Source of the DNA: Anaerolineales bacterium HSG25
GTDB taxonomy: Bacteria; Chloroflexota; Anaerolineae; 4572-78; J111
DNA length: 64,000 nucleotides
Direction of reading: 5' to 3'
Assembly: GCA_030377865.1 (NCBI GenBank)
Contig: JAUCGA010000011.1
Coordinates: 1-64,000, forward strand
The translations under genes were made by a program, and so were the position numbers. The notes beneath the pieces are model-generated. The model saw only the letters and a program-made list of their open reading frames with translations, had not been told where the DNA came from and ran no database searches. Positions 8,979-64,000 of this stretch are shown here, piece by piece (the first letter of the stretch is position 1; every line of letters starts with the position of its first letter).

Positions 8979-9057
8979 GTAAATATTCAGTGAACTCGTC
9001 AGAAACCCGATTTCTTTGAGAAATCGGGTTTCTAGGGCGGATACACATCTGTTACCA
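8979..9057 (+). repeat. Family B element, degenerate right end
   Basis: The left end GTAAATATTCAGTGAACTCG and the AAACCCGATTTC / GAAATCGGGTTT core match the 92-bp copies at 21427 and 26864. The right end has decayed and no target duplication is left. Confidence 0.75.
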
Positions 9058-21297: not shown

Positions 21298-21426
21298 TGT
21301 CACACCTCCAGATGGCGAATTTATGAGTAACGCACATTGTACCAGATTCCGCGTCTGCCGGAAAACTGATAATTTCACGATTGTGGTGGTCAAGATAACT
21401 CTCAAAAACTCTGCGGAACATCTCAA

Positions 21427-21518
21427 GTAAATATTCAGTGAACTCGCCAGAAAGAGTGTCAGAAACCCGATTTCTTAAAGAAATCGGGTTTCTAGGGCTA
21501 CTTTACTGAACTTTTACC
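21427..21518 (+). mobile_element. Family B element (92 bp) with 7-bp target duplication
   Basis: Inverted ends GTAAATATTCAGTGAACTCG and (reverse) GGTAAAAGTTCAGTAAAGTAG surround the AAACCCGATTTC / GAAATCGGGTTT hairpin. ATCTCAA at 21420-21426 is repeated exactly at 21519-21525. There is no coding capacity, so it is a non-autonomous (MITE-like) element. It sits upstream of the ParB-like gene. Confidence 0.9.
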
Positions 21519-21524
21519 ATCTCA

Positions 21525-21578
21525 ACACCTCCGAGGAAAACTACATACCTCGGAGGAGAACGGCTCCGCGTCCTCTAA
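21525..21578. repeat. Family L CCTCCGAGG palindrome
   Basis: CACCTCCGAGG ... CCTCGGAGGAG followed by GGCTCCGCGTCC. It is the reverse complement, with small changes, of 4411-4468. The family B insertion abuts it. Confidence 0.65.
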
Positions 21579-25017: not shown

Positions 25018-25460
25018 TAATGCTGATGGATGGCGATGGCTTCGGCCTCTAAAATGGGGCCAATCGTGGGCAGGGATTTAGTACCACGGGCAAAAATCTC
25101 GATGCAGGCCGGAATAATGGTCTGACTGCCAAAAATCTCGTCGAGCTTATAGGCCGGACAGCCATAAACCACCCCCTTTATATTGGCCCAGTGAATAGCT
25201 CCACTGCACATGGCGCACGGCTCGGTGCTGGTGTAGAGCCAACATTGAGCCACAACCCCGGCTCCAAGTTGTTGGCTGGCTCGGCTAATGAGATTCAGTT
25301 CAGCATGACGGGTGCAGTCGTTGTCGGTGTTGACACTGTTTTCGGCCTGAAATAAAATCTGGTCATCCTTGACTAATACTGCCCCAAACGGCTCATTGCC
25401 AAGCTGAATGGCGTTTTCGGCCAGTTCAAAACAAACTCGCATGTGTTTTTCATGGGTCAT
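25002..25460 (-). CDS. Zinc-dependent nucleoside/base deaminase (GuaD/TadA-like fold)
   Basis: The 152-residue enzyme has the two zinc motifs of the cytidine-deaminase fold: RHAELNLI (His52, catalytic Glu54) and TEPCAMCSGAIHW (Cys82, Cys85). The overall sequence is closer to guanine or cytosine deaminase-type proteins than to tRNA-editing TadA, because a basic RNA-binding surface is not evident. The precise substrate is uncertain. Its end overlaps the murJ start region by 16 bp. Confidence 0.82.
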   Translation of the reverse strand: MTHEKHMRVCFELAENAIQLGNEPFGAVLVKDDQILFQAENSVNTDNDCTRHAELNLISRASQQLGAGVVAQCWLYTSTEPCAMCSGAIHWANIKGVVYGCPAYKLDEIFGSQTIIPACIEIFARGTKSLPTIGPILEAEAIAIHQHYWPTP

Positions 25461-25488
25461 TGGGTAACTCCTGTTGCGTGTTGTTTAC

Positions 25489-25614
25489 ATAATTCATAAT
25501 TCGTAATTCGTAATTCGTAATTCATAATTCGTAATTCGTAATTCGTAATTCATAATTCATAATTCGTAATTCATAATTCATAATTCATAATTCGTAATTC
25601 ATAATTCGTAATTC
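25489..25614. repeat. Heptanucleotide tandem repeat, 18 units of RTAATTC
   Basis: Eighteen consecutive 7-bp units, ATAATTC or GTAATTC, run without interruption for 126 bp between the CNNM gene stop and the deaminase start. A second heptamer array with AATTCAN-type units is at 63026-63074 and a third with GTGAGGC/GTGAAAC units is at 62746-62822. Such arrays (STRRs) are known from filamentous cyanobacteria. Confidence 0.92.
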
Positions 25615-25623
25615 GTACTATTT

Positions 25624-26685
25624 TTAGCCACTCGTAAACTGTATCTCGTCACTTTTGGTGAACTTACGGGCTTTACGACGAGCAGAGGCTTGTAGGTCAA
25701 CGATAAGGTCAGTTTCGTCGACGATGTCGCCGGTTAGCACTTCGACCACATCTTCTAAGGTAACGACTCCGGCAATGCCACCAAACTCATCGACCACGAC
25801 GGCTAAATGCTGACGACGCTGTTGGAAGATGGGCAGAAGTTTGTCGGCGGGGAGAGTTTCGGGCACAAAACGAACTTCGCTGACCAACTCGGCAATTCGT
25901 TGTTTGTCCCGCCCTTCAATCATTTCGGTCAGCAAGACCCCTTTTAAAACTATACCTAGCACATCATCAATCGTGTCACCAATGACGATAATTCGACTAT
26001 GGGGCGAGGCTAGAATTTCGTCTTTAGCCTCAGCGAGGGTCATGCGCCCTTGCAGATGGGTCAGCGTAACACGGGGAGTCATCAGGTTTGAGGCGGTGAT
26101 GTCGTTCAGCTTAAACACTTGCTGAATCATCTGTGACTCATCCGATTCAATAATTCCCTCTTGCTGACCAATTTTAGCCAGCAATTTAATCTCGGCTTCG
26201 TCGGTGGTCGGCCTGCTGGCTCCTTCGGTGATGGGTGAGGTGATTTTTTCAACTGCCCAAACAAGCGGTGTGAATGTCCAAACTAAAAACCGTATCGGAC
26301 GGGCTGAAAAGAGAGCAATCGGTTCAGAGAAACGTTCTCCGGCAACTTTGGGAGTTATTTCGGCCAAAATAATCACCAAAAAGGTAAATATAGTCGAAAA
26401 TAGCCCCAGCCATTGACTGCCTAACACCGTTCCAGCAATTGCTCCGAGGGTAATACTGCCTACTATATTTGATATATTGTTGACGATGACGATGGTGGCG
26501 ATAGGCCGGTTCATGTTCTCACGAATGGTGAGTAAGGCCAAGGCCGCGGGCTGTTTAGTTTCGGCCAGTTGACGAACTTTGGTTAAGGGAACTGAGAATA
26601 GCGCGGCTTCTACTAGTGAACATGTCGCCGAAGCCACTAACACGGCCATAACACCAAGCAATAGTTGAAACAAGGTAACCTCCAA
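25624..26685 (-). CDS. CNNM/CorC-type membrane protein with CBS pair
   Basis: The 353-residue protein has a DUF21 membrane domain with three or four helices (residues about 1-145; SNIVGSITLGAIAG, AEITPKVAGERFSEP). Two CBS domains follow (about 205-335; MTPRVTLTHLQG, VVVDEFGGIAGVVTLEDVVE). This is the HlyC/CorC or CNNM layout linked to Mg2+ or Co2+ transport. The C-terminal CorC_HlyC domain found in many relatives is missing: the protein ends about 20 residues after the CBS pair, as in CNNM-like short forms. It is a single gene. Confidence 0.85.
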   Translation of the reverse strand: MEVTLFQLLLGVMAVLVASATCSLVEAALFSVPLTKVRQLAETKQPAALALLTIRENMNRPIATIVIVNNISNIVGSITLGAIAGTVLGSQWLGLFSTIFTFLVIILAEITPKVAGERFSEPIALFSARPIRFLVWTFTPLVWAVEKITSPITEGASRPTTDEAEIKLLAKIGQQEGIIESDESQMIQQVFKLNDITASNLMTPRVTLTHLQGRMTLAEAKDEILASPHSRIIVIGDTIDDVLGIVLKGVLLTEMIEGRDKQRIAELVSEVRFVPETLPADKLLPIFQQRRQHLAVVVDEFGGIAGVVTLEDVVEVLTGDIVDETDLIVDLQASARRKARKFTKSDEIQFTSG

Positions 26686-26811: not shown

Positions 26812-27053
26812 GCTGATAACTACGCAGAACTCATCCAATGACTATTAATAGAGCAGAGTTTACGTAAATATTCAGTGAACTCGCCAGAAGGAACGTCAGA
26901 AACCCGATTTCTTTGAGAAATCGGGTTTCTAGGGCGGTTTTACTGAATTTTTACGAGTTTACAGGATAGGAGAATAAAAATTCTCTTATTCTGTAAATTT
27001 TACTCTAAACAGCGTAAATACTGTGGACTATTTGAGTTGTGCGGAGTCTTCAA
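26812..27053. mobile_element. Family F element interrupted by a family B element
   Basis: The family F sequence (ACTACGCAGAACTCATCCAA to TTGTGCGGAGTCTTCAA) is the same as at 47412-47552. It is split after AGAGCAG by the 92-bp family B element at 26864-26955. The uninterrupted copy at 47412 acts as the empty site. Confidence 0.88.
26864..26955 (+). mobile_element. Family B element (92 bp) with 7-bp target duplication, nested in family F
   Basis: Exactly 92 bp, starting GTAAATATTCAGTGAACTCG and ending ACTGAATTTTTACG. AGTTTAC is present on both sides (26857-26863 and 26956-26962). The related empty site in the other F copy reads AATTTAC once. This is direct evidence for transposition rather than recombination. 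Confidence 0.93.
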
Positions 27054-45107: not shown

Positions 45108-45199
45108 GGTAAAAGTTCAGTAAAATCGCCCTAAAAACCCGATTTCTTTGAGAAATCGGGTTTCTGACGCTCCTTCTGGCGAGTCCACTGAATATTTAC
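45108..45199 (-). mobile_element. Family B element (92 bp), no target duplication left
   Basis: Exactly 92 bp, inverted relative to the 21427 copy: it starts GGTAAAAGTTCAGTAAAATCG, has the AAACCCGATTTC / GAAATCGGGTTT hairpin, and ends CCACTGAATATTTAC. Flanks CGGTGAT and GTTTCAG do not match. It lies between the carrier gene and its terminator. Confidence 0.85.
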
Positions 45200-47387: not shown

Positions 47388-47411
47388 TAATCCTTTTGTT
47401 AAAGAACTATA

Positions 47412-47552
47412 CTAATAACTACGCAGAACTCATCCAATGACTATTATAGAGCAGAATTTACAGGATAGGAGAATAAAAGTTCTCTTATCCTGTAAATTCT
47501 GCTCTAAACAGCGTAAATACTGTGGACTATTTGAGTTGTGCGGAGTCTTCAA
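47412..47552. mobile_element. Family F element, uninterrupted, with 8-bp flanking direct repeat
   Basis: Imperfect inverted ends (CTAATAACTACGCAGAACTC versus TTGAAGACTCCGCACAACTC) enclose a perfect inner hairpin around AGCAGAATTTACAGGATA. GAACTATA occurs at 47404-47411 and 47553-47560. It is the empty-site reference for the interrupted copy at 26812. Confidence 0.85.
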
Positions 47553-47556
47553 GAAC

Positions 47557-47802
47557 TATAGATGTTCAGATAGGCAGTTCCAGAAAAATAAATCTCCCAA
47601 AATAGGGTGAGAATAAATCCTCACCCTAAAAGCTTAAGACCGCTAAAGCGGCCTAAATAGCTGGCTTCAGCCTGCTTTAGCTATTAGTATTGGGATTTAT
47701 TCCGATGCGTTTTTGGGAGATTTTAAAAGTTGGAACAGCCATAAACCTTTTCAGTTGTCACCTTCCCGCAAGTTTTGAACTTGCGGGAAGGTTGGTCTTG
47801 AA
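47557..47802. mobile_element. Family A element split by a family E element
   Basis: The left end TATAGATGTTCAGATA (47557-47572) and the remainder (ATAAACCTTTTCAG onward, 47741-47802) belong to one family A copy. The 168 bp between them is a family E element. The right end of the A copy has been lost after GGTCTTGAA. Confidence 0.85.
47573..47740. mobile_element. Family E element with G core, 3-bp target duplication
   Basis: Ends GGCAGTTCCAG and (reverse) GGCTGTTCCAA, each followed by AAATCTCCCAAAA. ATA is duplicated (47570-47572, 47741-47743). Its interior (GAATAAATCCTCACCCTAAA to GGGATTTATTCCGATG) is about the same sequence as 50950-51050, which has different outer arms. Confidence 0.88.
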
Positions 47803-54901: not shown

Positions 54902-54991
54902 TGTAAAAGCTCAGTAAAGCCGCACTAGAAACCTGATTTTTTATGAAATCAGGTTTCTAGTGCCCTTTTAGTGAATTTGCTGAATGTTTAT
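54902..54991 (-). repeat. Family B element, diverged (90 bp)
   Basis: GTAAAAGCTCAGTAAAGCCG start, AAACCTGATTT / AAATCAGGTTT hairpin with compensating changes relative to the other copies, and GCTGAATGTTTAT end. No target duplication. It lies 56 bp before the binding-protein gene. Confidence 0.75.
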
Positions 54992-62986: not shown

Positions 62987-63025
62987 GCGAAGAATCCGCT
63001 CTGAATGATCATCATGGGGACTCTT

Positions 63026-63074
63026 AATTCACAATTCACAATTCATAATTCATAATTCAAAATTCAAAATTCTC
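63026..63074. repeat. Heptamer tandem repeat of AATTCAN units
   Basis: Seven 7-bp units (AATTCAC, AATTCAT, AATTCAA types) end 10 bp before the dppD start codon, where a ribosome binding site would be. Confidence 0.85.
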
Positions 63075-63084
63075 AACTAATTCT

Positions 63085-64000
63085 ATGAGTTCAAAACCAG
63101 TTTTAAGTGTAAAAAATGTAGCCGTCGCCTATAAAATTCGAGGCGGCGAAATCGAAGCGGTGCAGGATGTCTCGTTTGATATTCCGCGCGGTGGGAGTCA
63201 AGGTATTGTCGGCGAGTCAGGTTGTGGGAAAAGCACCATCTCGTGGGCCATTGTCAACTTTTTGGGAAGCAATGGGTACGTCAAACGGGGCAGTATCAAG
63301 TTCCAGGGGCAGGAGATGATCGGCAAGGACGGTGAGGAGTTACGCCGTTTGCGGGGCGACCAGATTGCGATGGTCTTTCAAGACCCCATGCAGGCCCTCA
63401 ACCCCTCCATGACCCTCGGCGGCCAGATGAAAGAGGTGCTGACCGTCCATCGAAATTTGAGTGATAAAGAGGCCGAAACTCGCTGTATCGAAATGTTAGA
63501 GCGAGTTTACATGCCCGACGCGGTCAACGTCATGAAACGATATCCGCATCAAATATCGGGTGGGCAACAGCAGAGGGTGGTCATCGCCACTGCCCTGCTG
63601 ACTAATCCGGCTTTGCTGATTATGGATGAACCGACCACCGCGCTTGACGTGACCGTCGAGGCTACGGTACTCGACTTAATTGCCGACCTGCGGCGCGAGT
63701 TCGACACCGCCATCATGTATATCAGCCATAATTTGGGCGTGGTGGCGCGGGTGTGCGACCATGTCGGAGTTATGTATGCGGGCGAGATGGTCGAGCGGGG
63801 CACCGTGGCTGAGATTTACAAAAACCCGACCCATCCTTATACTCAAGGGTTGATTCGCTGTGTGCCTAAACTCGGCGCAGATAAGGCCAGCAGTGTCCTG
63901 TACCCGATTCGGGGTCGAGTGCCACCGCCCAACAATCGTCCGGTGGGCTGTATCTTTGGCCCGCGCTGTGACTATCGACAGACCAAATGTGAGCAGGAAC
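63085..64000 (+). CDS. Oligopeptide ABC transporter ATP-binding protein, DppD type (partial)
   Basis: The frame starts ATG at 63085 and is still open at the window end after 305 residues. It has Walker A GESGCGKSTIS near residue 43, Q-loop VFQDPMQALNPSM, signature ISGGQQQRVVIATALL, Walker B LLIMDEPTTALDVT and H-loop YISHNLGVV. The C-terminal oligopeptide-type extension YPIRGRVPPP...GCIFGPRC carries part of the Fe-S-type cysteine motif. It powers the DppB/DppC permease. DppF is expected next, outside the window. Confidence 0.93.
   Translation, partial: MSSKPVLSVKNVAVAYKIRGGEIEAVQDVSFDIPRGGSQGIVGESGCGKSTISWAIVNFLGSNGYVKRGSIKFQGQEMIGKDGEELRRLRGDQIAMVFQDPMQALNPSMTLGGQMKEVLTVHRNLSDKEAETRCIEMLERVYMPDAVNVMKRYPHQISGGQQQRVVIATALLTNPALLIMDEPTTALDVTVEATVLDLIADLRREFDTAIMYISHNLGVVARVCDHVGVMYAGEMVERGTVAEIYKNPTHPYTQGLIRCVPKLGADKASSVLYPIRGRVPPPNNRPVGCIFGPRCDYRQTKCEQE

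Follow-up and report, generated by a model that had tools for sequence, protein, structure and literature searches.

Family B, a high-copy Chloroflexota MITE with 8-bp target-site duplications and a likely IS66-type parent

Among IS66 elements, ISDge4 of the ISBst12 group has been observed to transpose; its ends are GTGACTACTCAGCA and GTAACTGCTCAGCA, it is flanked by an 8-bp direct repeat, and IS66 transposition itself is described as insufficiently characterised (PMC12898284). GTAA ends are also found on Pseudomonas IS66 elements, and Paracoccus IS66 elements are listed with an 8-bp duplication. Parents have been named for two MITEs: ISPsy2 for MITEPsy1, with a 4-bp duplication (PMC3189936), and ISCca4, of the IS982 family, for MITECca01 (PMC9769881). 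A cyanobacterial MITE, Nezha, is also on record (Zhou et al. 2008, cited in PMC10969869). Here we describe family B, a short repeat of a 64-kb stretch of Chloroflexota DNA (the window, meaning the whole of the stretch analysed), as a high-copy MITE whose empty sites are directly visible, whose footprint is corrected and whose likely parent family can be named as IS66.

Family B is 91 bp long and runs from GTAAA to TTTAC. One full-length copy (26864–26954, plus strand; ends GTAAATATTCAGT / ACTGAATTTTTAC) sits inside another repeat, family F. Its first bases are GTAAATATTCAGTGAA and its last TTACTGAATTTTTAC, it is 95.6% identical to the consensus of 94 copies, and it is bordered on the left (26856–26863) and on the right (26955–26962) by GAGTTTAC. 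A second full-length copy of 91 bp (21427–21517, plus strand) lies between two copies of CATCTCAA (21419–21426 and 21518–21525). The original prediction had recognised repeats on both sides of each insertion, and in this it was right, but it had drawn the boundaries one base off, giving a 92-bp element with 7-bp borders, AGTTTAC for the copy within F and ATCTCAA for the one at 21420–21525. In each case the base just beyond the 7-mer matches too, which lengthens the duplication to 8 bp and shortens the element by one base. Three further copies in the window had gone unlisted: a third of 91 bp, with no remaining duplication (45109–45199, minus strand); an old, diverged copy of 89 bp, likewise without duplication (54903–54991, minus strand); and a truncated copy that keeps the left end and the internal hairpin and has no right end (8979–9043, plus strand). 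In the consensus both ends begin GTAA. The ends are inverted (GTAAAWRTTCAGTRAA) and asymmetric over ∼22 bp each (GTAAATATTCAGTGAACYCGCC on the left and GTAAAAGTTCAGTAAAACCGCC on the right), and the element is non-coding and too small for a transposase.

Copies were collected from 41 stretches totalling ∼0.81 Mb (810 kb), about 16% of the genome and selected partly around matches; this sample held 94 dispersed copies of exactly 91 bp. Their flanks form a perfect 8-bp duplication in 42 of the 94, match at seven of the eight bases in 16, and match at fewer than seven in 36. Shifted-flank controls gave 8/8 in 0 of 5797 comparisons and 7/8 in 0.017%. Flank agreement was 54–58 of 58–61 copies at all eight offsets and fell to background immediately outside them (14/58 and 6/58), which sets the length of the duplication at 8. 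Tabulating the flanks thus yielded duplications of fixed length, as had been anticipated, but the anticipated length of 7 bp gives way to 8 bp across the exact-length copies. Genome-wide, a 13-base end pattern allowing at most one mismatch found 455 + 442 matches, versus 15 + 27 for the reversed pattern; scaling from the sample together with this whole-genome count, we estimate ∼370 full-length copies. Mean identity among the 94 exact-length copies is 94% to the consensus and 92% pairwise, from which the family B burst looks moderately old.

Empty sites are available for comparison. The occupied family F repeat (26812–27053, plus strand) is ∼94–95% identical, on both sides of family B, to an uninterrupted copy (47412–47552, plus strand) that represents a related empty site. 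This pairing had been pointed out before and holds, with four empty F copies rather than one: when the element and one duplication are removed from the 26864 copy, the joined flanks match the uninterrupted copies at window position 47412 and in L040, L045 and L070 at 86–96%, with a single 1-base gap. Within the window the target sequence is GAATTTAC where F is uninterrupted and GAGTTTAC where it is occupied, a difference of one base, and the gap fits a one-base difference within F close to the junction. At several loci, empty sites without gaps also exist for family B copies inserted in other repeats, as at L075:17599 compared with L055 (over 135 bp) and L064:17253 compared with L075 (over 149 bp). 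These empty sites, with the 42 perfect duplications in 94 copies set against none in 5797 controls, bear out the original claim that family B transposes.

Other small repeats occur in and around these loci. Family F is a long imperfect hairpin in its own right (window 47400–47565), and GAACTATA is a possible 8-bp duplication around its copy at 47412, other F copies being ambiguous in this respect. Family B copies are themselves broken by other small elements in L049, L051, L064, L068 and L070. At L070:5511–5703 the interruption is an inverted-repeat element with an apparent 10-bp duplication, GTAAATATTC, with one mismatch. At L049:17790–17979 and L064:9058–9248 the interrupting element consists of CCTTCCCGCAAGTT palindromes between the ends TACAGTCTTTCAGATAA / TATAGATGTTCAGATAA and may have TA duplications. 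In the window, a 7-bp unit (AATTCGT / AATTCAT) is repeated in arrays at 25460–25641 and 63009–63099.

Within the Chloroflexota the ends have a narrow distribution. They were present in 3 of 61 relatives' genomes: the window's own (G000), a congener (G001, 26 end matches) and a member of one other, sister genus of the same family (G004, the MAG Chloroflexi bacterium Dive96_bin10.46, 12 end matches). The rest of the order contributed no further genomes with family B ends, and among 400 genomes sampled across the phylum the ends were found in the window's own genome only. The G004 elements are 134–135 bp long and have the same two distinct ends as family B around a different palindrome, built of TAATTGG-like units; nearly all have perfect 8-bp duplications. 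Nezha, a MITE of cyanobacteria and thus of a different phylum, is reportedly about 134 bp long with 8-bp duplications, a similar size and footprint when the two are compared by description only.

When genome contigs were scanned and the matches followed up by further searches, the same end pair was recovered in the Bacillota, namely in Desulfofundulus thermosubterraneus, a Desulfovirgula MAG and their relatives, with tens of copies each in several genomes. Sizes vary, with elements of 38, 58, 68, 368 and 391 bp among those with 7/8 or 8/8 duplications; in the 38-bp element (L218) the two ends stand back to back, with the 8-bp duplication GAAGCTGG on both sides. Single right-end-like 20-mers were also seen at Desulfofundulus L213:4356 and L213:4972, each of them overlapping the stop codon of one of two neighbouring genes, with GTAA giving the TAA stop; judged from sequence only, one of the two ORFs resembles a Xaa-Pro peptidase and the other EF-P.

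Among the relatives of Desulfofundulus, those with few end matches have the ends on either side of IS66-family elements. One of these (L277, in genome G150) is a complete element of 3,272 bp with ends GTAAGTATTCAGTGAACCCGCT / GTAAGTATTCACTAAACCAGCA and the duplication AAAAATTC. It encodes a TnpC of 534 aa, with scores of 273 bits for NF033517, whose cut-off is 180, and 192 bits for PF03050, as well as a DruA-domain protein (PF14236) of 325 aa and a 180-aa ORF that has no Pfam match. Another (L281; 1,983 bp, duplication CGAAGGCA) holds pieces of an IS66 TnpC and a DruA gene. The left end of family B agrees with that of L277 at 19 of 22 bases, where shuffled ends reach a maximum of 16 anywhere in the locus; the right end agrees weakly, at only 15 of 22, and the comparison is with complete elements of another phylum that were themselves retrieved by searching with the MITE ends. 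The DruA name derives from the Druantia anti-phage system. Its gene adjoins or overlaps tnpC within the IS66-family elements of L277 (1584–2561, minus strand), L280 and L281, and the DruA-domain protein of these elements matched none of the PADLOC models.

Searching for a transposase bounded by the family B inverted repeats, as proposed with the original prediction, thus led to IS66 elements in other genomes but to no matching transposase in this one. Neither PF03050 (IS66 transposase) nor PF14236 (DruA) found a match in G000, G001 or G004. With a fragmented G000 assembly that is ∼80% complete, the source element may be unassembled, or gone; that is, the mobilising enzyme may have been lost from its own genome or may simply be missing from the assembly. 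The lack of a partner with matching ends in G000 weakens the parent assignment, not the status of family B as a MITE. Several other candidates were set aside. DDE_Tnp_1 transposases gave four matches in G000, G001 and G004, none flanked by family B ends. The IS66 element of Desulfofundulus itself (L219) has GTAAGCG ends, unlike those of the MITE, and at the Desulforudis locus L164, as at some other single end matches, the ORFs tested contained no Pfam transposase. IS66 elements of three members of the same family (G003, G005 and G007), one of them with a perfect 8-bp duplication, have different ends (GTATTTGTTTACC, GTTACTACCCAGG and GTATCTACTCACC). No Chloroflexota IS66 with exactly the family B ends was found, viral, phage and plasmid collections gave no meaningful match, and a literature search for the end sequences gave no match.

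The repeats might owe their existence to something other than transposition. At the centre of family B is a strong hairpin (AGAAACCCGATTTCTT / AAGAAATCGGGTTTCT), the element folds at −42.1 kcal/mol (z −8), and 93 of the 94 copies lie outside ORFs of ≥200 aa, within which 71% of random 91-mers fall. Such features would suit a REP-like hairpin kept for a role in transcription or in mRNA, its flanking repeats having arisen by chance or by replication slippage. We regard this as very improbable, as it leaves unexplained both the excess of perfect duplications over controls and the empty sites. Placement outside ORFs is equally expected where insertions into genes are selected against, and the few changes in the stem (2 double, 8 single and 9 broken of 1410) carry little compensatory signal; Rfam holds no family matching the window. 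A role may nonetheless have been acquired after insertion. Still less credible is a spread in which repeats recombined or underwent gene conversion with one another. It could draw on the 36 full-length copies that lack a duplication of at least 7/8, and on those copies of family B that lie within or beside other repeats, but conversion would bring the flanks along. Each duplication-bearing copy has instead its own 8-mer and unrelated flanks, which already contradicts conversion wherever the duplication is perfect.

Granted transposition, the mover could belong to a family outside IS66 that also makes 8-bp duplications (e.g. IS1595, IS256, ISL3 or ISAs1). Room for such a mover is left by the lack of an IS66 gene in all three carrier genomes and by the search for other families in G000, which covered DDE_Tnp_1 only and gave one match, not flanked by family B ends. 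We nevertheless consider it unlikely, because every complete element found to combine these ends with an 8-bp duplication encodes IS66 TnpC, and because a GTAA start together with an 8-bp duplication agrees with described IS66 members. Family B is a MITE and, with good probability, owes its mobility to an IS66-type transposase acting in trans. The IS66 type is the most likely one, and family B adds a new example to a known class of element.

Under IS66 mobilisation, family B would be built from the two termini of an IS66-family IS, left and right, set around the strong hairpin, and would have no coding sequence. An IS66-type DDE transposase (TnpC), encoded elsewhere, would bind both ends, cut or copy the element and join it to a new target through 8-bp staggered cuts, the repair of which would leave the 8-bp duplications. 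That TnpC is the actual enzyme is most likely, judging from the shared ends and footprint. More tentatively, and rather less likely to be true than not, the asymmetric IS66 end pair may be a minimal mobile module kept in both Chloroflexota and Bacillota, its filler replaced in each genome by unrelated palindromes, down to the 38 bp of L218. In any case one set of ends links short elements of two phyla, and with these shared ends it becomes directly testable how short a substrate an IS66 transposase can use, perhaps one of only 38 bp.

Compared with the systems described above, family B stands closest in its ends to the ISBst12 group of IS66 as represented by ISDge4 (PMC12898284): it has the GT(A/G)A start, CAG at positions 10–12, unequal ends and the 8-bp duplication. 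Unlike members of that group it has no gene. In addition to an IS66 TnpC, as in the ISBst12 group, the complete relatives with matching ends encode a DruA-domain protein and one more small ORF; ISBst12 elements are usually described as having a single ORF, and these relatives depart from that description. We conclude from sequence comparison that an IS66 TnpC probably mobilises family B. MITEPsy1 and MITECca01 share their genome with the parent IS, whereas for family B no parent was found in this assembly, and the IS families differ. Like both of these MITEs, family B is short and gene-free, and its ends are close to those of an IS.
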